Below are positions 10,389 through 20,859 of a stretch of 64,000 nucleotides of DNA, piece after piece. The DNA lies in the NCBI GenBank assembly GCA_013140985.1, contig JABFRU010000053.1, positions 1 to 64,000 on the forward strand, read 5' to 3'. Origin of the DNA: Chitinophagaceae bacterium (GTDB taxonomy: Bacteria; Bacteroidota; Bacteroidia; Chitinophagales; Chitinophagaceae). Positions within the stretch are counted from its first letter, which is position 1; each line of letters opens with the position of its first letter. The position numbers and the translations under genes were made by a program. Under the pieces are notes generated by a model, which saw nothing but the letters and a program-made list of their open reading frames with translations, did not search any database and had not been told where the DNA came from.

Positions 10389-12989
10389 ATGTCTCCAAAA
10401 TTAAAGGAATTTATTTGCCTTGCAATTATCGTCATCAGTACTTTAACAAGCTTTGCCCAGGTAAGTCCCACTTCTGCAGGCGAAAGGATGCAGGGACTTG
10501 ACCAGCGAAGAAAACTCGGGGCGCTTTCTATTGTCAATGATATTAAGTTCAAAAATATCGGTCCGGCCATTATGAGCGGCCGTGTAGTTGATCTTGATGT
10601 AAACCCCGAAGACCCCACAGAGTTTTATGTTGCCTATGCCACCGGAGGTTTATGGCATACCACCAACAATGGCCAGTCTTTTACCCCCATTATGGATAGT
10701 TTGGATATGTTGTTCATTGGTGATATTGCAGTGAACTGGAAGAACAGGACTATTTGGGTAGGCACCGGCGAAGTGAACAGCAGCCGTTCTTCTTATGCCG
10801 GTGTTGGAATTTATAAAACCACTAACAACGGAAAATACTGGGAATATCTTGGCCTGCCTGAATCGCATCATATTGGAAAGATACAATTGCATCCTGCTGA
10901 TCCCAACACAGCATGGGTAGCAGCATTGGGTCATTTATATTCTGCCAATAAAGACAGGGGCATCTTCAAAACAACAGATGGTGGCAAAACATGGAAACAA
11001 ACTTTATACGTTGATGATAATACCGGCGGAGCAGATATTGATATCAATCCGGCCAATCCGCAGGAACTATATGCTGCCATGTGGTATCGCACCCGCAGGG
11101 CATGGCGGTTTGAAGAAAGCGGAAAGACGAGTGGTATCTATAAAAGTAATGATGGCGGAGAAACCTGGAAAATAATCTCTGCAGCAGGTTCGGGTTTTAT
11201 GACGGGTGACAAAATAGGACGTATCGGTGTTGCTGTTTATCCCAAAAACCCAAACATCGTTTATGCAATAGTCGATAATTACAATACAAGACCTGATACC
11301 ACAAAAAAAGTGGATACGCTGTACAAAAAAGATGATTTTAAAGATCTGACCAAAGAACAATTTGCACAATTGGATAATAAAAAGTTAGATACTTTTTTAC
11401 GAAAAAGTTTTTTTCCAAGAAAATACAACGCTGCTTCTGTAAAAGAAATGGTGGCGACTGATAAAGTAAAACCTACTGCTGTCTGGGATTACCTCGATAC
11501 CGGCGATGATGGTTTCCAGGGCACACCGACAGGCGCTGAAGTATATCGCAGCGATGATGGAGGAATGACATGGAAAAAAACAAATACAAAACTGATCAAC
11601 ATCTACAGTACGTTTGGCTATTATTTCGGTAAGATATATGTATCGCCGGTGGATGATAAAAAAGTGATCATATCAGGCATTCAATTGCAAATGTCAACAG
11701 ACGGAGGAAAGACTTTTAAGAACATCAATAAACCTAATGTGCATGCCGATCACCATGCTGTGTGGATCAATCCGAAAAAAGACTCACACATCATCAATGG
11801 CAACGATGGCGGCTGCAATATTACTTATGATAATGGCGACAATTGGTTCTTCGCCAATACACCACCGGTGGGCCAGTTTTATACTGTAACAACAGATGAT
11901 GACAGGCCCTATAATGTTTACGGTGGTTTGCAGGATAATAATGTCTGGTACGGACCCTCAAATTATGCAGCCAGCCCGAGATGGCAGAGCAACGGTGATT
12001 ATCCTTACAAATCATTGGTAGGCGGTGATGGCATGCAGGTGCAGGTGGATACAAGGGATAATACAACTACCTATGCCGGTTCGCAATTCGGTGTCTATTC
12101 AAGAATGAACCGAAGGACAAGAGCAGATCGTCGTTCTGTTCGTCCTACACATGAGCTGGGCGAAAAACCACTTCGTTTCAACTGGCAAACACCGATCCTG
12201 CTTAGCCGGCATAACCAGGATATTTTTTATATCGGCGCCAACAGGTTGTATCGTTCTTTTACAAAAGGTGACACACTGATCGGCTTAACGTCAGATATGA
12301 CCAACGGAAGACCTCCCGGCAATGTACCTTATGGTACAATGACCACATTAAGTGAATCATCACTACGTTTTGGGTTATTATATGCAGGTACTGATGATGG
12401 GAATATCCATGTTACAAAAGATGGTGGATATACATGGACAAAAATAAATGTGATGATACCTGCTGCTGCTCCTGCAAAAGCAAAGGGAAAACAAGCATCA
12501 ACAGTAAATACAATACCTGATGGGCTTTGGGTAAGCCGTGTCATTGCCTCCCAGCACAAAGAAGGAAGAGTATATGCTACATTGAACGGATACCGCTATG
12601 ATCATTTTAAGCCTTATTTGTTCATGAGTGATGATTATGGTGCCACATGGAAACAATTGGGACAAGACCTTCCATTTGAGCCATTGAATGTGGTAAGAGA
12701 AGATCCGAAAAATGACAGCATCCTTTATGTAGGCAGCGATGGCGGCTTATATGTAAGCTTTAACCAGGGCATTAGTTTCATGCTATGGAATGGGGGTATG
12801 CCTAAGTCAGTTCCGGTGCATGATATTGCCATACAACAAAGAGAGAATGAAATTATACTTGGTACGCATGGCCGTAGTTTATACCTGAGCAAGCTAACAG
12901 ATATACAGGGATTGAAAAAAGATCCGGATTGGCTGAAGAAGAAACCAAAGCCAAAAGAAGTGAAACTGACTAATGATGATGATGATTAA
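10389..12989 (+). CDS. Secreted BNR/VPS10-like beta-propeller protein
   Basis: 866 residues with a signal peptide (cleavage near SFAQ, about residue 24). It contains many Asp-box/BNR-type repeats of the form SxDGGxTW, for example FKTTDGGKTWKQ, YKSNDGGETWK, YRSDDGGMTWKK and HVTKDGGYTWTK. These mark two seven-bladed propellers of the sortilin/xyloglucanase-like type. The family is often annotated as glycosyl hydrolase, but no catalytic residues can be assigned. The C terminus is a charged tail ending in DDDD, with no type IX sorting domain. It shares the propeller layout with the larger protein at 56644-60210. Confidence 0.8.
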   Translation: MSPKLKEFICLAIIVISTLTSFAQVSPTSAGERMQGLDQRRKLGALSIVNDIKFKNIGPAIMSGRVVDLDVNPEDPTEFYVAYATGGLWHTTNNGQSFTPIMDSLDMLFIGDIAVNWKNRTIWVGTGEVNSSRSSYAGVGIYKTTNNGKYWEYLGLPESHHIGKIQLHPADPNTAWVAALGHLYSANKDRGIFKTTDGGKTWKQTLYVDDNTGGADIDINPANPQELYAAMWYRTRRAWRFEESGKTSGIYKSNDGGETWKIISAAGSGFMTGDKIGRIGVAVYPKNPNIVYAIVDNYNTRPDTTKKVDTLYKKDDFKDLTKEQFAQLDNKKLDTFLRKSFFPRKYNAASVKEMVATDKVKPTAVWDYLDTGDDGFQGTPTGAEVYRSDDGGMTWKKTNTKLINIYSTFGYYFGKIYVSPVDDKKVIISGIQLQMSTDGGKTFKNINKPNVHADHHAVWINPKKDSHIINGNDGGCNITYDNGDNWFFANTPPVGQFYTVTTDDDRPYNVYGGLQDNNVWYGPSNYAASPRWQSNGDYPYKSLVGGDGMQVQVDTRDNTTTYAGSQFGVYSRMNRRTRADRRSVRPTHELGEKPLRFNWQTPILLSRHNQDIFYIGANRLYRSFTKGDTLIGLTSDMTNGRPPGNVPYGTMTTLSESSLRFGLLYAGTDDGNIHVTKDGGYTWTKINVMIPAAAPAKAKGKQASTVNTIPDGLWVSRVIASQHKEGRVYATLNGYRYDHFKPYLFMSDDYGATWKQLGQDLPFEPLNVVREDPKNDSILYVGSDGGLYVSFNQGISFMLWNGGMPKSVPVHDIAIQQRENEIILGTHGRSLYLSKLTDIQGLKKDPDWLKKKPKPKEVKLTNDDDD

Positions 12990-13027
12990 GATGTGAAATT
13001 GTGATATAATCACTAATTATAGGAAAG

Positions 13028-14245
13028 ATGAAAAAGATAACAACCAGATTATTGTTATTAAATAAAAAGACGATTATATATTCACTTATTATTTCACTTT
13101 TTACTTGGCTATTTACTTTTCTTATTCATATAAATATCAAAGCCTTAACAATTATTGATACAGGGCTTGATGATGTTGACTTAACTGACATTGTGTATAG
13201 TCGTTCGTCGAAATCAACAAATTCAATTCATACCATTGAAAATAAAAATATCGTCTTAATAAACTCAGGAGATTTAAAAAGATATGATCTTGCAAGATTA
13301 CTCTCTAAACTGGAAGAATACCAAGTAAGGGTTATCGGGATTGATATAATTTTCAAAAACTTAGTAGGCAATCTTGCTGATACTCTACTGGCAGACGTAA
13401 TCAGTAAAAATGACAATTTGGTCTTCGCCACACTTATAGAAGATCAAAAAAAGATGATGGTTAAAAACTCCAATTCTTTCTTTAAAATTAAAGCTGAAGG
13501 ATATACGAATTTTTACAATTTGAAAGATTCTCTTTCAGTTGTAAGAGAGTTCAAGTCATACATTTATCATAAAAAAGACACCCTACACTCTTTTGCACTT
13601 AGCATTGTAAAAAAAATTGATCCTATTTCTTATAATAAAATGATCAAGTGTCATAAGAAAGGAATGCTTATCAATTATTCAGGTAATGAAAATAATTTTA
13701 TCATTTTAGAAGGCGATTCGATCCTGCATTCACAAAGGAGTTTTGAGAAAGAATTATATGATAAGGTTGTACTTGTTGGCAAGATCAATACAACACCAAA
13801 TTCTAAAAATTCAACGTTAGAAGACAGGTTTTATACGCCGATGAATTCGATAATTTTTGGTAAATCATATCCTGACGCATCAGGACTAATTATTCAGGCA
13901 AATATTTTGTCCATGATTTTAGATGGAAAGTATATAAAAAAGTCATCGAATCTTTTTAATCTTATTACAGTCTTGATTATCACCTATTTGGTAGTAACGC
14001 TTTTCCTAAGAATTGAACACTACTATCGTACTTGGCATCATATCATCATTAAAATTTTGCAAATTATTTTTTCAATTATTGTAGTTTTAATCAGCATATT
14101 GATTTACGAAAACCTTAGATTTAAATTCAATACTGGATTTCTTTTAACCAACATTATTATCAGCGCTGAAATGCTCAGTCTTATTCATGCTGTTGAAAAA
14201 AGCTATTTTAATCCACTCATAAAAGCTAAAACAGAAAAAAATTGA
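13028..14245 (+). CDS. CHASE2-domain membrane protein without output domain
   Basis: 405 residues. One N-terminal membrane segment (about 17-36) is followed by an extracytoplasmic CHASE2 domain, recognised from ENKNIVLINSGDL, YQVRVIGIDIIF and KVVLVGKINTTP. Three C-terminal membrane helices follow (about 312-333, 340-368 and 375-395), then only some 15 cytoplasmic residues. CHASE2 normally senses an external signal and passes it to a cyclase, kinase or FHA domain; here none is attached. The base composition is visibly more AT-rich than in the flanking genes. The next gene starts inside its stop codon region, so the two are coupled. AGGA lies just before the ATG. Confidence 0.75.
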   Translation: MKKITTRLLLLNKKTIIYSLIISLFTWLFTFLIHINIKALTIIDTGLDDVDLTDIVYSRSSKSTNSIHTIENKNIVLINSGDLKRYDLARLLSKLEEYQVRVIGIDIIFKNLVGNLADTLLADVISKNDNLVFATLIEDQKKMMVKNSNSFFKIKAEGYTNFYNLKDSLSVVREFKSYIYHKKDTLHSFALSIVKKIDPISYNKMIKCHKKGMLINYSGNENNFIILEGDSILHSQRSFEKELYDKVVLVGKINTTPNSKNSTLEDRFYTPMNSIIFGKSYPDASGLIIQANILSMILDGKYIKKSSNLFNLITVLIITYLVVTLFLRIEHYYRTWHHIIIKILQIIFSIIVVLISILIYENLRFKFNTGFLLTNIIISAEMLSLIHAVEKSYFNPLIKAKTEKN

Positions 14246-15078
14246 AATATCGATTACTAATGTTCATTATTCTTTGTCTGCTAGCAGGCGTTGTTAGGGG
14301 GCAACATACCTATTCATTAGATTATATCTCTGGAAACATTCAAGTCAAAAAATTTAATTCGATTGTTTTACAAAAAGGAAACATCAGCCAAAAAATATAT
14401 ACTGGTGATAAGTTATTCATAGCAGCTAAATCCTGGGTTATAATTTCAGATGAAAGAAATAATACATACAAAATTGAAATGCCAGGTGAATTTTCCGTAC
14501 AGCAAATAGATGATTTAATTAATGGGCAAAAAACAAAAGTTTTTCAAAAATATGCTCACCTAGTTAAAAAACATCTTATTAACACAAGTAATCGCAGGGG
14601 TTTGTCTGATATTGGTGGGGTGACAGAAAATACCGAATTAAGTAATACTCTTTTATACTTTGAAAGCGACACATTCTATTACTCAAAAGATGAAGAACTC
14701 ATGATACTACTGAAAGAGTGTGAGCAACCTTTTATTAAACTAGTCATTACCCAAAATAGTGAATCCATTTTGGATACTATTATCCATCAAACACAACGGG
14801 TAAATCTTTTATCTCTTACCCAAGCTATAAATACTTCAGAGCCTTTTTGCATTTTTTTTGATAAAGATCTGGGTTTGGATATTCAGACTGATTTAGTCAA
14901 ACCCGTTGTAGTAATAATTGATAAAAACAAAACCCCTGCTTGCCTCACTCATTTTATTGATCAGAATATTAAGGAATCAAACAATAATTCTTTGTTTAAT
15001 TTACTATTAAAAGCGTATTTTTTAATTGATAACAAGTATTACAATCTTGCGTACACACTGCTACAAACAAGTCAATGA
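14242..15078 (+). CDS. Secreted protein with FecR-like N-terminal domain
   Basis: 278 residues with a signal peptide (cleavage near VRGQ, residue 21). The start is TTG at 14242, overlapping the TGA of the CHASE2 gene (TTGA). An ATG at 14260 is possible, but the Lys/Arg of the signal peptide n-region lie before it, which favours TTG. The stretch from about 28 to 85 resembles a FecR fold: SGNIQVKK, then TGDKLFIAAKSWVIISD and YKIEMPGEFSV. The remainder is unrecognised. FecR-like proteins encoded with CHASE2 proteins are known from other phyla as part of signalling cassettes; that this one works with its neighbour is inference. Confidence 0.55.
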   Translation: MKYRLLMFIILCLLAGVVRGQHTYSLDYISGNIQVKKFNSIVLQKGNISQKIYTGDKLFIAAKSWVIISDERNNTYKIEMPGEFSVQQIDDLINGQKTKVFQKYAHLVKKHLINTSNRRGLSDIGGVTENTELSNTLLYFESDTFYYSKDEELMILLKECEQPFIKLVITQNSESILDTIIHQTQRVNLLSLTQAINTSEPFCIFFDKDLGLDIQTDLVKPVVVIIDKNKTPACLTHFIDQNIKESNNNSLFNLLLKAYFLIDNKYYNLAYTLLQTSQ

Positions 15079-15082
15079 TTTT

Positions 15083-16441
15083 CTATTTTTTATCTTTTCT
15101 TAGTGTTACTCTAACCTTTTTTACATCTACAGTAATATTATCTATTATAAACCCATCTTGGATTTTCTCTATGATTTCACTCATATCAGTTCCGTCGAAG
15201 CTCCGTATTGACCAGGTATCAACATCCGAATGATTCATAATAAAAGCAAAAAAATGTCCGTCCACATATTTCCAGCAATAAAGGTAGTTACTATTTTCCC
15301 TGTTTTCTCGATACCACTTATTAAAATTATCAGCATCATTAAAAAAACCAAATGCCGGTTCGTCGTTATCAGTAAGCACAGTTAATAATACATGATAACT
15401 ATCTCCATCATCAACAATATTTTGAACAGAATAATCCCTAGTAGATCTATTCAAAAAAGCCTCAAGACTATCTAAGAAATCATCTTTTTTGAAATATAGA
15501 GTTCTCTGGCTAAAAGAGTTCTGATGTTTTAGCAGGATAACAAACCATCTATCATCAATCTTTTCCATAAATTCTATATTATACCCATTGTCCATATCTT
15601 TCTGGATTTTATCCGAAGGAAATGATTTATATCCAAAGAAAAAGTCATAATCACTAACATTGTTGATTTTCTTCCAGACGGAGTAAAATTTGTCTTTATA
15701 CTTGAATATAGAAATAGGAAACAGATTATTTGAAGAATTATATTTAGAAAAGTAATCTTCAATATCCTGTCCTCTTAAAGTGCCCTCATATTCAAGGAAA
15801 GAATAATTACCCAACTTAATCATATAATCTTTATAGGGCGTTGCCTTAAATGCTTCTATCGGCTTTGGATTGGGTTCGAAGCCCTTACTGATTGCTAGTT
15901 TTCTATTGTCTAAAGAAGGATGCGGGAATAGCTCCTCCGTTTCATTTGCAGGGTTGAATTTCATCGATTCTACAGCTACATAACAATCATTTATCCCTCC
16001 CCCATTTGCCTTAACAAGTGATGCAGCCATTGAATCTGCTTTTAATTCATGAGCTCTTCTTTGAGCTAAAGTGGGATTTCTTATGAAAAAGTGGCGAAGA
16101 TAAATATGCGCAAACTCATGTGCTATTATAAAAAAATGGCTATGATACTTTTCATTAATATCTTTATACTGGTTTTCATCAATAAATAAGTATCTGTTAT
16201 TGCAATTTCCTTCAAATGCTTCAGCAGGGGTGCCTTCCGCAAGATCACAACTAATAATTTGGATATTATAACCAATAAGGTTAAGAGCCTTGTAGATTTT
16301 GGCCAGTTGAACTTCCGTCAATGTAGAACTCATGCGATAACCTGAGGTCAAATTGCATAAATTATCTGGTTCGTTACACTGAGAATTAGCTGAGTTAAAA
16401 AAAAATATGGCAAAAACAAATAAAGGAAGTGAATTTTTCAT
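15083..16441 (-). CDS. Secreted M48-like zinc metalloprotease
   Basis: 452 residues with a signal peptide (cleavage near ANS, residue 20). Zinc-binding motif HEFAH at 108-112, with the third ligand Glu132 in ELKADSMAA. This HExxH plus ExxxD pattern, and the later HPSLDNR, are typical of M48-type peptidases, but the usual membrane helices are missing, so the enzyme is soluble and exported. The C-terminal 250 residues are unrecognised and rich in aromatic and acidic residues. It overlaps the papain-like gene by ATGA, so both are made from one message. It converges with the FecR-like gene, with 4 bases between the stop codons. Confidence 0.75.
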   Translation of the reverse strand: MKNSLPLFVFAIFFFNSANSQCNEPDNLCNLTSGYRMSSTLTEVQLAKIYKALNLIGYNIQIISCDLAEGTPAEAFEGNCNNRYLFIDENQYKDINEKYHSHFFIIAHEFAHIYLRHFFIRNPTLAQRRAHELKADSMAASLVKANGGGINDCYVAVESMKFNPANETEELFPHPSLDNRKLAISKGFEPNPKPIEAFKATPYKDYMIKLGNYSFLEYEGTLRGQDIEDYFSKYNSSNNLFPISIFKYKDKFYSVWKKINNVSDYDFFFGYKSFPSDKIQKDMDNGYNIEFMEKIDDRWFVILLKHQNSFSQRTLYFKKDDFLDSLEAFLNRSTRDYSVQNIVDDGDSYHVLLTVLTDNDEPAFGFFNDADNFNKWYRENRENSNYLYCWKYVDGHFFAFIMNHSDVDTWSIRSFDGTDMSEIIEKIQDGFIIDNITVDVKKVRVTLRKDKK

Positions 16442-17892
16442 AGTCTTGTTTTAATTTTAATGATCAGGAAAATATCTTTCCCATTTTCAAATTTGAAATC
16501 AATACTATCAGAGCTTACCTTTAATAACGACCCTTCGTTCCTTATACCTGAATATATTTTAATTTTTTCATTAACTGCAATATTGGACTTATCTGATGAT
16601 ATTTGATCAAGAACTTTATTTAAATCAAAGTCAGCAGATTTTGTAAGTGTGATAACTGTATAAAATTCGTTTTCGAGTGCTTTTATGACACTATGAGCAG
16701 GAAATGTAAAGTTTGAACTATCTGTAAAAGTAAAACCTGACTCTAATTGATCGGGAAAATTAATTTCATAACTAGATCCTATACTCCCCATCTTTACATA
16801 ATATCCTTCAGGTAAATTGCTTAGTTTAATCTTAAAAATATCTTCTTTGTAAACATTGGTTGAGATAACTCCCGAAGTAATATCGATTGGTAAAATATTA
16901 TTGAATTCGACTTTACCATTATTCAATCTGTCATAATCCTCTATCTGAAGCCGCATTCGTAATAATGAAGGAGCGGTATGACTTTCAAGATACATAATAC
17001 CCGCCGAAGCGACGTATTTCTTGAAATCTTTGAATCTTATTTTCACAAACCCGTTTCCCTTTGCCTCTGGCCAGTCTCCCCAACTGTTCAGCACTTCAAA
17101 ATATTTCTGCCGTATATTATAACCAACTACAACCATTGCATGCCCATTCTTCAATACTGGTTTTAAACTATCAACTGGCGTCCAAAAATCATTATCAAAA
17201 TCTTCTCCATCCCAGAAAGAAACATCTTTATTGGTTGATTTTGGAATACGGATATCGATAACAACAGGAATTCCTTCTGCAATTTTAGTAATAACTTTAT
17301 ACACCTTATCTGGGTCTTTACCGTATTCTTCATTGTAAACTTCAGCTTCTGTAAACAACTCTGCAAAATCGTTAATTTTTGACAACGATGTATTAACCGG
17401 CAGTAAAATAGGCACAGCAGATTTACAAACCTCAGCGTCTGTCAAAGTCCTATTAGGTATATTTCCATTTGCTTTTAAAAAATCAAATGCTTTGAAAATG
17501 TTGATACCACATCCACCGCATGCATCCGTTCTTTCACATTTATCAGTATTCTCCAAGAGACTCTTATAAATATAAAGTCCTGAAAATGCTGATGCTGTTA
17601 TTTTATTCTTATCAGTAATTTTATTAGTTCTTGCCCACAGGATAGTTTGGGCACCGTATCCCACTGCCCACCCGGTACAAGAACCTATCTGTCCTTGGTG
17701 ACCAGGAGTTGGACAAAATTGTTTTAAACTAAATGAATCTGGAATTCCACCTGAAAACCCAAGAGAAAAACTTTCAGACACTTTGGGAATTCTTTCTTGT
17801 ATTGAATCATAAGTTGCACCCAGAGAATAATTCTGACCTGAGCTTTTTATAAAAAATGCAAATGCTAAGCTCAAAAAAATGGCTTGCCTCAT
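16438..17892 (-). CDS. Secreted papain-like (C1) cysteine protease
   Basis: 484 residues with a signal peptide (cleavage near SSG, residue 19). All catalytic positions of a C1 peptidase are visible: Gln66 and Cys72 in HQGQIGSCTGWA, His251 in KNGHAMVVVGYN, and Asn269 in NSWGD. No separate inhibitory propeptide is evident; the catalytic domain begins about 40 residues after the signal peptide. Residues from about 305 on form an all-beta C-terminal region of unknown role. It is the first gene of a two-protease operon. Like its neighbours down to 13 kb it is AT-rich relative to the surroundings. Confidence 0.82.
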   Translation of the reverse strand: MRQAIFLSLAFAFFIKSSGQNYSLGATYDSIQERIPKVSESFSLGFSGGIPDSFSLKQFCPTPGHQGQIGSCTGWAVGYGAQTILWARTNKITDKNKITASAFSGLYIYKSLLENTDKCERTDACGGCGINIFKAFDFLKANGNIPNRTLTDAEVCKSAVPILLPVNTSLSKINDFAELFTEAEVYNEEYGKDPDKVYKVITKIAEGIPVVIDIRIPKSTNKDVSFWDGEDFDNDFWTPVDSLKPVLKNGHAMVVVGYNIRQKYFEVLNSWGDWPEAKGNGFVKIRFKDFKKYVASAGIMYLESHTAPSLLRMRLQIEDYDRLNNGKVEFNNILPIDITSGVISTNVYKEDIFKIKLSNLPEGYYVKMGSIGSSYEINFPDQLESGFTFTDSSNFTFPAHSVIKALENEFYTVITLTKSADFDLNKVLDQISSDKSNIAVNEKIKIYSGIRNEGSLLKVSSDSIDFKFENGKDIFLIIKIKTRL

Positions 17893-18009
17893 AAACAGTG
17901 GGTGGTTTAATTTACACTGAATTTACAACGACTTTATTAAAGTACGAAGAATTGAACTCAAAAAAGACTATTTCCGCCTTGGCAGGTGTTCTCAAAGGGG
18001 TAACACGCC

Positions 18010-18115
18010 GTGGTCGGTGTTTTTCTCCACCGACCACCCGAATTAAGAACATATTTTTTACTCAAGAATACATTAGAAAACTTACAACAAATGGCGGGTG
18101 AAAGAGAAACACCCG
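18010..18115. other. Two hairpins with complementary loops
   Basis: Hairpin 1: stem 18010-18019 / 18028-18037 (10 bp, GTGGTCGGTG), loop TTTTTCTC. Hairpin 2: stem 18095-18100 / 18110-18115 (CGGGTG), loop AAAGAGAAA. The loop segments TTTCTC (18022-18027) and GAGAAA (18104-18109) are exact reverse complements, so a kissing interaction is possible. The region lies downstream of the S1C protease gene and upstream of the papain-like gene, both on the minus strand. It may terminate the former. Confidence 0.5.
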
Positions 18116-18137
18116 TCACGGCTCTCACATCAATTTA

Positions 18138-19496
18138 TTAGGCTTTCTTCCTTCTTCTCATCAACAGGACCACAATAATTATCAATACAACAGCTCCCCC
18201 ACCAATATAAAAATACATCGGGTCAATGCCTTTGGGTTCTTTATCCAGCCCTTTTTCAATATTACGTTCCGAATCGGAAATATATTTATCAATAAAAGGA
18301 AAAGAGGGATTCATATCTTTTACTTCTTTGAATTTCTCCAATGCTTTTTTATAGCGGTCTTTATCAAAAAGATCCATCGCACTTTCAAAAGCCAGTGATA
18401 TATCACTCATATCAGGTTCTATATCAGCTTTGCGAATAAATTCATTGACAATGGTAGCCGGTACAACGAAATTCATACCCTGCACTTCCTGTCCCCGTTG
18501 TGCATCAATACTACCAAATGTTGCAAGACCCACAACTTCTCCCCTTTCATTCATTACCGGCCCACCGCTATTGCCATGTGTAATAGAAGCATCTGTTTGC
18601 AAAACCTCCCAGCCGCCTTTCATATTCTTTTTGGCACTTACCAATCCTCTTGTCAGTGAGGCTTCGGACATAGATTCTTCAGAGATCAATGGATGAAAAG
18701 TTGCTACAGCAGGGTAGCCCAATACATATAACTGGTCTCCTACTCTCAGGTCTTTATCATCACCAATACGGATGGTTGGGTAGGTATGTTTTTCTGTGAT
18801 ACGTAAAATGGCAACATCTTTTCCCGGTATAGCAGCTCCCATCGTTACTAATTTCGCCGGAACATTCATGGGTTCTATTTTTCCACCTTTACCTGTAATG
18901 CCGATCACCACAGCAAATTCTTTTGTAATGCGGCTCACTTCCATGGTCTGGGAAAAATACCAGCTGTTAGCATCCAGCAATGCATTGGCCTCATCCTCGG
19001 TCAGTTTGCGCCCCATCGTTTCTTCCATTCCATTTAAATCATTGTCCAGTATTTCCTGGAAAGCCTGTTGGGCAAAACTTTTTCTTGTTTCTTCGTCATT
19101 CTCATCCACCACATGTGCATTGGTGATAACATAACCATCGGGTGTAACGATAAATCCTGAACCTACCATGGTTGTATTCAAATCCTTGCTTACTGTTTCG
19201 GTGCCTTTCCTCATATACTTGTCCACATTTGCACAGAAACTTTTTATATATACATTCCAGAAAAGATCCGAGGTGAATTTTCCTTCATTCTCGAGTTGCT
19301 GTTTTACTTCAAGGATCAGCGCTTCGACTGCCGGCTGGTCGATCTCAGGCTTGACAGCGGTAACGGTTCCTTTATAAGTTGCCAGTATCATTACCGTACC
19401 CGGCTTGTTGCGTTCAGCGATCTGTACAGGTGTTAATTGCTGGGCTGATGATTTAAAAGCGATAAGAATAGCTACGATACAATAGATCTTTTTCAT
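18138..19496 (-). CDS. S1C (DegP/HtrA-like) trypsin-type serine protease with C-terminal anchor
   Basis: 452 residues from the ATG at 19496, where the signal peptide MKKIYCIVAILIAFKSSAQ begins; a longer frame back to 19694 overlaps the next gene and is rejected. The catalytic triad is His128 (ITNAHVV), Asp227 (GKDVAIL) and Ser310 (HGNSGGP). There is no PDZ domain. After the protease comes a short helical TPR-like stretch (about 355-405), then a single membrane helix and a basic RRRKKA end. So the protease domain should face the periplasm while tethered to the inner membrane. A TATCTTTA element lies upstream. Confidence 0.85.
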   Translation of the reverse strand: MKKIYCIVAILIAFKSSAQQLTPVQIAERNKPGTVMILATYKGTVTAVKPEIDQPAVEALILEVKQQLENEGKFTSDLFWNVYIKSFCANVDKYMRKGTETVSKDLNTTMVGSGFIVTPDGYVITNAHVVDENDEETRKSFAQQAFQEILDNDLNGMEETMGRKLTEDEANALLDANSWYFSQTMEVSRITKEFAVVIGITGKGGKIEPMNVPAKLVTMGAAIPGKDVAILRITEKHTYPTIRIGDDKDLRVGDQLYVLGYPAVATFHPLISEESMSEASLTRGLVSAKKNMKGGWEVLQTDASITHGNSGGPVMNERGEVVGLATFGSIDAQRGQEVQGMNFVVPATIVNEFIRKADIEPDMSDISLAFESAMDLFDKDRYKKALEKFKEVKDMNPSFPFIDKYISDSERNIEKGLDKEPKGIDPMYFYIGGGAVVLIIIVVLLMRRRKKA

Positions 19497-19572
19497 ACAA
19501 TTAGTTTTTAACCGGTAAGGGATAAAGATAATTCTCCTGGCGGAGATTTCGTTCTCCCTCAAAAGAGGGATG

Positions 19573-20859
19573 TCAAAAAATATGAAACCGCTCAAAACAT
19601 AAGCGTTCCAGCATTTCCCTGTCACCGGGATGCGCAATATTGATAAGTTCTTTTGCCCGTTGGCGCAGGTTTTTGCCAAAAAGATAGGCGACACCGTATT
19701 CTGTTACCACATAATGAGCATGGGCTCTTGTTGTTGTTACACCGGCTCCGGGTTTCAGCATAGGTACGATCCTTGGGTCACCTTTAAGGGTACGGCTTGG
19801 TAATGCTATGATCGGTTTACCTCCCTCGCTTAAAGCGGCCCCCCGCATAAAGTCCATCTGGCCACCTACCCCCGAATATTGGTATGTACCGATCGAATCT
19901 GCACAAACCTGACCGGTTATATCAATTTCAATCGCACTGTTGATGGCCACCATTTTATGGTTTCGGCGAATGATGTGAGGATCATTAACATAGTTAATAT
20001 CGAGAAATTGGAAAGCAGGATTATCATTTACATAATCATAAAGACGCCTGGTTCCCAAAGCGAAGCCGGTCACCGTTTTGTTGGGATGTATCTGTTTGTA
20101 TTTATTATTAATAATATCCTTTTCAATAAGATCAATGATACCATCAGAACACATTTCCGTATGCACCCCAAGGTCTTTATGCCCGTGCAAACAATTCAAA
20201 ACAGCATCGGGTATGGAACCGATACCCATTTGCAAAGTGCTTCTGTCATCGATCAATCCCGCCGCATATTCACCGATCTTTTTTTCTGCTGCTGTTATCT
20301 TATCTCCAAACCTTACCTCGTATAAAGGATCTTCACAATACACCATGCTGTCAAAGCGGCTGCTATGTATCAGTCCATCGCCGTGTGTGCGGGGAACATT
20401 CGGATTTACCTGGGCAATAATATGTCCGGCATTATTTACGGCAGAACGGGCAATATCAACCGATACTCCCAGTGAACAATAGCCGTGAGCATCCGGGGGC
20501 GATACCTGTACCATAGCAACATCAAGAGGCAGGATATTTTGCTTGAAAAGCTCTGGTATTTCGCTTAGAAAAACCGGGATATAATCTGCCCTTCCTTCAT
20601 TTACATCTTTCCTGATGCTGGCCGAAACGAACATGGAATTTATATTAAAAATACCCGCATACTCAGGTTTATCTACATGTATATCTCCATATACAGAAAT
20701 AAAAACAAGTTCTACATTAGTTAGACTTTTGTGCTGATCTGCCAGTGCTTTCAACAGTAAAGCAGGAGTTTGTGCACTGCCATGCACATAAACCCTGTTT
20801 CCGGGCCGCACAATTGAAATTGCCTCCTGCGCCGATTTATATACAACAGGTATTTTCAT
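19573..20859 (-). CDS. Acetyl-CoA hydrolase/transferase family protein
   Basis: 428 residues. Family I CoA-transferase-like enzyme of the acetyl-CoA hydrolase/4-hydroxybutyrate CoA-transferase group. Visible signatures are QVSPPDAHGYCSLG, LQMGIGSIPDAVL, LGVHTEMCSDGI (which holds the candidate catalytic Glu) and TEYGVAYLFGK near the end. It moves CoA between acetate or another short acid and an acyl-CoA. An ATG at 20868 is also in frame and would lie inside the promoter element, so I chose 20859. It follows aroQ with 73 bases between. Confidence 0.85.
   Translation of the reverse strand: MKIPVVYKSAQEAISIVRPGNRVYVHGSAQTPALLLKALADQHKSLTNVELVFISVYGDIHVDKPEYAGIFNINSMFVSASIRKDVNEGRADYIPVFLSEIPELFKQNILPLDVAMVQVSPPDAHGYCSLGVSVDIARSAVNNAGHIIAQVNPNVPRTHGDGLIHSSRFDSMVYCEDPLYEVRFGDKITAAEKKIGEYAAGLIDDRSTLQMGIGSIPDAVLNCLHGHKDLGVHTEMCSDGIIDLIEKDIINNKYKQIHPNKTVTGFALGTRRLYDYVNDNPAFQFLDINYVNDPHIIRRNHKMVAINSAIEIDITGQVCADSIGTYQYSGVGGQMDFMRGAALSEGGKPIIALPSRTLKGDPRIVPMLKPGAGVTTTRAHAHYVVTEYGVAYLFGKNLRQRAKELINIAHPGDREMLERLCFERFHIF

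Follow-up and report, generated by a model that had tools for sequence, protein, structure and literature searches.

Bacterial CHASE2 receptors may use proteases as an output, and we describe a four-gene island that is consistent with this arrangement in a 64,000-nucleotide stretch of DNA from a Chitinophagaceae bacterium (assembly GCA_013140985.1, contig JABFRU010000053.1, positions 1 to 64,000; hereafter the window). The island encodes a CHASE2 protein without an output domain, an adjoining partner protein, an M48-like metalloprotease of the HExxH type and a papain-like cysteine protease. We lean slightly toward reading these four genes as one acquired module in which the CHASE2 receptor would act through a periplasmic partner on two exported proteases. 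On this reading the island would be one version of a more widespread layout whose protease is a caspase-like protein of the C14 family, and related sensor-protease neighborhoods recur in the phylum.

The CHASE2 protein matches Pfam PF05226 with an E-value of 1.3e-22 (81.1 bits; cut-off 26.3) and is 25-33% identical to 19 relatives. CHASE2 is the single domain found by a Pfam scan of this protein, which returned no cytoplasmic output domain. Hydropathy predicts four transmembrane (TM) segments (residues 15-33, 309-327, 339-357 and 371-389), and there is no room for an output domain because only 16 residues lie beyond the last of them. An earlier reading made from the sequence alone, the sequence-only reading, had claimed that the output domain is missing, and both results agree with it. 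In trees of the CHASE2 and partner families the window proteins lie on very long branches (2.13 and 4.81, respectively) and are not placeable.

Gene neighborhoods were surveyed in two sets of CHASE2 loci. The order set consists of 49 of the 52 CHASE2 places in genomes of the same order, leaving out the window copy, a second copy on contig C32 of the same genome and G021, and 47 of the 49 were recognized by hidden Markov model (HMM); it includes at least four loci (L148, L149, L151 and L152) that hold only short CHASE2 frames and neither partner nor protease. The named set comprises the top 80 of 184 relatives, ordered by similarity to the window CHASE2, with titles representing Chitinophagaceae, Saprospiraceae, Bacteroidales, Cytophagales, Sphingobacteriales, Flavobacteriales, Ignavibacteria, Kapaibacterium and others. 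Because some genomes occur in both sets, the counts are not independent of each other, and the HMMs were iterated on the same loci. A protease was scored when a C14 caspase-like, papain-like or HExxH gene lay within 6 kb of CHASE2, and neighbors were counted from six-frame open reading frames (ORFs) because some genes were absent from greedy gene calls. The M48 domain of the window protein served as the seed of the HExxH family, of which one scanned Saprospiraceae member scores 14.6 against the Pfam M48 cut-off of 20.3.

A partner gene lies within 2.5 kb of CHASE2 in 40/47 order loci and 73/80 named loci, and a protease gene within 6 kb in 38/47 and 58/80; among loci flanked on each side by 6 kb or more the protease counts are 33/40 and 36/47. 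Distances in the named set are similarly concentrated, with partners most frequent at 1-2 kb and absent beyond 6 kb, HExxH genes peaking at 1-3 kb (the motif is in all 74 members of this family, which was gathered by that domain), and 58 caspase matches within the first 6 kb compared with five in the 7-10 kb bins. For scale, the organism's own genome holds six C14 genes in 3.86 Mb, so that about 0.02 are expected per 13 kb, and caspase-richer genomes would give more. As a control, 20 loci with CHASE2 frames of at least 550 amino acids (aa) were chosen from matches ranked by E-value, of which 19 were recognized. A protease lies within 6 kb of these long frames in 3/19 cases, compared with 38/45 (order) and 58/79 (named) for short frames, and three more long frames within the two sets have no protease nearby. 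Short forms had been used to train the partner HMM, and its count of 2/19 in long frames is not evidence of absence. Four long proteins were scanned for domains; L303, L310 and L315 carry cyclase domains and L320 carries SpoIIE. The protease link is thus much commoner in output-less CHASE2 than in long forms, and the gene make-up of the island is probably not accidental. The sequence-only reading had suggested looking for CHASE2 genes close to C1 and M48 peptidase genes, and while proteases do usually accompany output-less CHASE2, the usual kind is caspase-like and not papain plus M48. At L320 (2421-10551) the CHASE2-SpoIIE gene stands beside one papain-like and two caspase-domain genes.

The same association is seen close to home. 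On contig C32 of the same genome a CHASE2 gene, whose product is 31% identical to that of the window, is followed by two partner genes; a divergent gene there encodes a protein of 1109 aa that combines TPRs with a caspase domain (PF00656, E 1.2e-12). A CHASE2 homologue is found in 10/22 genus relatives, which makes it common but not genus-wide; at eight of these ten loci, the partner follows in seven (the L026 contig ends) and a caspase-TPR gene is adjacent in seven (all but L024). Unlike its C32 paralogue and the CHASE2-partner-caspase neighborhoods of the phylum, the island has no C14 gene close to CHASE2, and no caspase HMM match was obtained among the called genes of the window. Partner genes can be multiplied in these neighborhoods: the two behind the C32 CHASE2 gene are in tandem (L003, 7044-8901) and their products are 41% identical, while L255, L263 and L274 have two CHASE2 genes followed by four partner genes in a row.

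The sequence-only reading described both island proteases as intact, and their predicted catalytic residues are indeed kept. The M48-like protein belongs to Peptidase M48 (PF01435, E 5.6e-6, 26.7 bits against a cut-off of 20.3), with HEFAH at residue 108 and ELKAD from residue 132, the Glu of which is aligned in relatives. Its C-terminal domain is of unknown kind. A single close full-length homologue, 33-34% identical, was found among 395 other genomes, in G352. The papain-like protein scores 15.9 bits against Pfam Peptidase_C1, below the cut-off of 20.7, but Gln66, Cys72, His251 and Asn269, the residues of family C1, are invariant among six sequences, and the protein aligns collinearly with five papain-like proteins linked to CHASE2 (23-26% identity), one of which matches PF00112 with an E-value of 1.4e-12. 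Simple motif counts across the wider families (papain-like Cys in 24/32 and Asn in 30/32; caspase-like His in 131/145 and Cys in 128/145) indicate that not every relative is clearly intact. A structure model of the papain-like protein from six sequences had a mean predicted local distance difference test (pLDDT) score of 44.8 and was set aside.

Relatives of the papain-like protein occur in 130/396 order genomes, its own included. At 20 papain loci, a caspase-like gene lies within three genes in 13/20, an HExxH gene in 7/20 and either in 18/20, the two loci with neither being contigs of less than 6 kb; L058 was fetched for its M48 gene, and the count is 17/19 when it is left out. The HExxH genes near papain-like genes in L062, L063 and L068 encode a C-terminal part whose motifs appear to resemble the SUMF1/formylglycine-generating fold. 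A scan of genome contigs with the papain-like protein alone gave 73 pattern matches, none of which was confirmed. The genome contains a second papain-like protein of 535 aa on contig C59 (L018, 8399-10003), with a TM-like segment at 51-69 in place of an N-terminal one, and the genome's only two CHASE2 matches lie on contigs other than C59.

The four kinds of gene also co-occur elsewhere, a recurrence on which the sequence-only reading had made its proposal depend. In L276, from an uncultured Flavobacteriaceae, one strand encodes in order a papain-like protein, a 163-aa protein, an HExxH-TPR protein, CHASE2, a partner and a second CHASE2, and the papain-like protein aligns to that of the window along its length at 25% identity. 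The proteins agree in kind with the four of the island but are not a set of four orthologues. In addition, three Ignavibacteria loci (L236, L239 and L289) have CHASE2, partner, papain-like, approximately 165-aa and caspase genes in this order, and in a fourth (L275) the caspase gene is upstream. The conserved protein of approximately 165 aa (L239, 13466-13960; L236, 3901-4398; L289, 15502-15993) has a C-terminal hydrophobic stretch, is encoded between the papain-like and caspase genes, and gave no match in a Pfam scan of the L239 copy. A prolyl oligopeptidase-type (S9) gene lies between CHASE2 and partner in L289 (11180-13135), a fourth kind of protease in such neighborhoods.

The partner protein had been called FecR-like, a label that is doubtful. 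The window partner matched no Pfam family at E-values up to 1, which rules out a FecR identity at the Pfam level, and FecR (PF04773) is absent from the 25 families given, of 50 in all, for 48 partners. Of these 48, 14 are matched by TPR_2 and six by DUF928 (E up to 1, best 5.5e-5), the window protein not being one of the six. A CHASE2-linked partner-family HMM built without the window protein matches it with an E-value of 2.2e-5, which becomes 9e-44 after an iteration that takes the window protein in. An AlphaFold model (pLDDT 77.6) predicts two beta domains, the first of them N-terminal, and helices at the C-terminus. Foldseek gave no match to this model at an E-value of 0.001 or better. In VIA-align the fourth-ranked row is the MtxA C-terminal domain (4z29_B; Z 5.9, under the tool's safe level; root mean square deviation 5.0 over 122 residues, 142-278), and the top row, 5ix9, a 'cell surface anchoring domain' (residues 21-94, Z 9.5), is taken as no more than a lead. 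Matches of the partner profile to PDB sequences are mostly TPR proteins, and the MtxA chain itself matches at an E-value of 0.051, weaker than many of these. The gene order is as for MtxA-like CHASE2 partners, with the partner gene adjoining CHASE2. The modeled partner may resemble MtxA, the closest named relative found, and MtxA-like is tentatively the better label.

Export of the two proteases and the partner appears likely from their N-termini. A rough scan for a hydrophobic N-terminus is positive for all three, and in the named set it is passed by 86/94 partners, 63/66 caspase-like, 5/6 papain-like and 29/31 HExxH proteins compared with 263/523 other ORFs from these loci; because this rate exceeds that of other ORFs, the protease and partner cargo looks exported. 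The earlier statement that all four products are exported or membrane proteins is consistent with the four hydrophobic segments of CHASE2 and likely for the other three.

An ORF check reproduced the layout given by the sequence-only reading exactly (Table 1). Four-base overlaps join CHASE2 to the partner gene (TTGA, 14242-14245) and the papain-like to the M48-like gene (ATGA, 16438-16441), and the two convergent pairs are separated by four bases (15079-15082). The GC contents of the CHASE2, partner, M48-like and papain-like genes are 0.286, 0.307, 0.327 and 0.339, each below every one of the 46 other window ORFs of at least 150 aa (0.412 +- 0.021, minimum 0.372), and their third-position GC is 2.9-3.8 standard deviations low relative to other window ORFs. 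The island as a whole (4.9 kb) has a GC content of 0.317 between 10-kb flanks of 0.416 and 0.403. The proposed difference in composition is thus clear for GC but not for codon choice, whose distance measure is unremarkable (z 0.2-1.4). A promoter scan was uninformative (28 sites against 26.0 +- 4.5 in shuffles).

Table 1. Features of the island and its flanks, in window coordinates
Feature	Coordinates	Strand	Basis or remark
Sortilin/BNR-type flanking protein	10389..12989	+	Pfam PF15902; in 39/42 genus genomes, own included
Left junction, 38 bp, sortilin-like stop to CHASE2 start	12990..13027		Inverted repeat GTGAT-ATA-ATCAC, read by eye
CHASE2 protein, 405 aa	13028..14245	+	Pfam PF05226, hydropathy, identity to relatives
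Partner protein, 278 aa (earlier 'FecR-like'; better MtxA-like)	14242..15078	+	TTG start, signal-like N-terminal stretch
M48-like HExxH metalloprotease, 452 aa	15083..16441	-	Pfam PF01435, motif, homologue in G352
Papain-like (C1-type) cysteine protease, 484 aa	16438..17892	-	Catalytic residues, collinear CHASE2-linked relatives
Right junction, 245 bp	17893..18137		Terminator-like hairpin and T-rich tail at 18005-18020
Trypsin-like flanking protein	18138..19694	-	Pfam PF13365; in 13/42 genus genomes, own included

The four genes fill one variable slot. In genus relatives without the island the trypsin-like gene adjoins the sortilin-like gene; both flanking genes are found in 12 such relatives and are 18-448 bp apart in 9/12, and in G020 they sit on separate contigs. 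Two relatives, G405 and G004, carry approximately 8 kb of other AT-rich genes in the slot (GC 35.6% and 35.9% against 38.8-47.9%), and because this cargo differs the slot is regarded as an insertion hotspot. The simplest account is a single insertion of all four genes, with two successive insertions as the alternative. No sign of a mobile or viral origin was found: the window has no tRNA, a comparison of two junction stretches showed no direct repeat of nine bases or longer, and no CHASE2 relative was confirmed in viral contigs. In the slot (12990-18137 in the window) G405 has several small genes and G004 a putative RND-type efflux operon, both richer in AT than the DNA around them. The N-terminus of the trypsin-like ORF (19500-19694) is probably annotated too long, as one or more stop codons fall within the aligned stretch in 7/12 relatives and several other relatives align only from approximately residue 57-63 onward.

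In the mechanism that we favor, CHASE2 would be an inner-membrane receptor with its sole sizeable soluble part in the periplasm, and an exported partner of putative MtxA-like build and two exported proteases would complete the module. An envelope signal would alter the CHASE2-partner complex, and, because CHASE2 is without a cytoplasmic domain, a periplasmic path from sensor to partner to protease is the simplest. The signal would thus leave on the periplasmic side through the partner, which may release or position the papain-like and M48-like proteases, and these enzymes may cut envelope, periplasmic or surface proteins. The direction could also be the opposite, with the proteases trimming the receptor. 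Of the sensor-protease cassette first proposed from the sequence, the linkage of an output-less CHASE2 to proteases is supported and the FecR label is not.

Several observations weigh against a single module, and some of them would suit two unrelated two-gene modules in one hotspot, one being a sensor made of CHASE2 and its partner and the other a protease pair of papain and M48 type, an alternative that we hold to be rather unlikely. The two pairs in the window are convergent and so are not one transcript. In G352 the gene of the M48 homologue is coupled to a different papain gene and 18 kb of sequence holds no CHASE2, nor do the 43 genomes in which CHASE2 was matched include G352 (its inclusion in that search is presumed). 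No papain gene lies within 6 kb of CHASE2 in any of the 40 order loci with full flanks, the slot accepts other cargo in G405 and G004, and all four kinds of gene were found together in just one other locus of those fetched, L276, where the HExxH protein shares the protease domain only and TPRs replace the C-terminal part of the window protein. The four Ignavibacteria cases probably represent one event. Furthermore, none of the three protease families is present in 11/47 named and 7/40 order loci with full flanks, and proteases near the long frames L310 and L315 (cyclase) and L320 (SpoIIE) indicate that the link is not confined to output-less forms. Against two separate modules stand the low GC common to all four genes, the same-strand run of the four kinds in L276, the CHASE2-partner-papain order in Ignavibacteria, and the fact that each half is independently linked to caspase-like genes.

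A system for conflict or programmed death, in which a phage, predator or rival sensed at the envelope would lead the proteases to harm either the attacker or the cell itself, would fit a hotspot island present in a single genome, the caspase-like relatives, and the CHASE2-metacaspase fusion of Trichodesmium (PMC3501461, PMC2853523). We give it little credence, as PADLOC yielded no confident model match to a known anti-phage system (weak matches for the M48-like protein at E 0.005-0.2, best 0.0052, and none for the other three), no relative of CHASE2 was confirmed in viral contigs, the presence of CHASE2 in 10/22 genus relatives with a caspase-like gene beside 7/8 looks like a kept function, and the island proteins look exported while published models are cytosolic. 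Still less probable is that CHASE2 signals inward via an unlinked cytoplasmic protein and that the proteases are bystanders. Relatives of the same phylum do carry cyclase domains, and pairs of CHASE2 with FecR-type proteins have kinase or cyclase outputs (PMC5192318, PMC9239204), but the 16 residues beyond the last TM segment and the much commoner protease link in short forms argue against this reading.

Published systems share parts of this arrangement. In magnetotactic bacteria mtxA precedes a CHASE2-adenylate cyclase gene (PMC4439547); as in the window, the partner gene is next to CHASE2, and the C-terminal domain of MtxA is matched by the window partner model at a Z of 5.9, under the tool's safe level, but the MtxA-linked CHASE2 carries a cyclase, whereas the window protein ends after its last TM segment and has proteases as neighbors. 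A Campylobacterota cluster combines CHASE2-adenylate cyclase, FecR-domain, TPR and phosphodiesterase proteins (PMC9239204), and likewise pairs CHASE2 with a FecR-domain envelope protein; it differs in its cyclase output, with no protease named in the portion available, and the window partner is without a Pfam FecR match. The BiofilmReg operon of Burkholderia, with a LysM-FecR protein and a CHASE2 histidine kinase (PMC5192318), also has an exported FecR-type protein beside CHASE2 but a two-component output and a partner with LysM. The Trichodesmium protein (PMC3501461, PMC2853523) similarly ties CHASE2 to a caspase-family protein, but by fusion and with the protease predicted to be cytoplasmic, while the island proteases are separate and apparently exported. 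In a Nostoc cluster CHASE2 lies near a DUF928 gene (PMC5587647), a family also matched by 6/48 partners (not that of the window), but the neighbors are WD40 proteins and not proteases. In Sinorhizobium the response of CHASE2 cyclases runs via NsrA, an outer-membrane protein (PMC13001267), and the targets of Clr include a FecR-domain protein (PMC5498481). From these comparisons we infer that the CHASE2-partner pair may be an old sensor unit with a changed output. The claim that such a cassette is not described agrees, for the protease link, with the literature searched, in which no description of an output-less CHASE2 linked to exported proteases was found and which left most subscription papers and all preprints outside its scope; CHASE2 with a FecR- or MtxA-type partner and other outputs is already in print.

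More broadly, we tentatively suggest, as a possibility that we rate below the reading of the island itself, that Bacteroidota and their relatives have an undescribed class of receptor in which an output-less CHASE2 and an MtxA-like periplasmic partner switch on interchangeable exported proteases (caspase-like, papain-like, HExxH and occasionally S9), the window representing a caspase-free, double-protease version. Caspase-like proteins occur in many Bacteroidota, and we know of no receptor shown to trigger them there. If the suggestion is true, caspase-family enzymes would work in the envelope and be controlled directly by a receptor, and extracytoplasmic proteolysis would be added to the known CHASE2 outputs, kinases and cyclases. 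The neighborhood rule gives a concrete receptor to test for caspase-like, papain-like and HExxH proteins, and the natural protease swap in the window suggests that CHASE2 and the partner are the constant parts and the protease the variable one.

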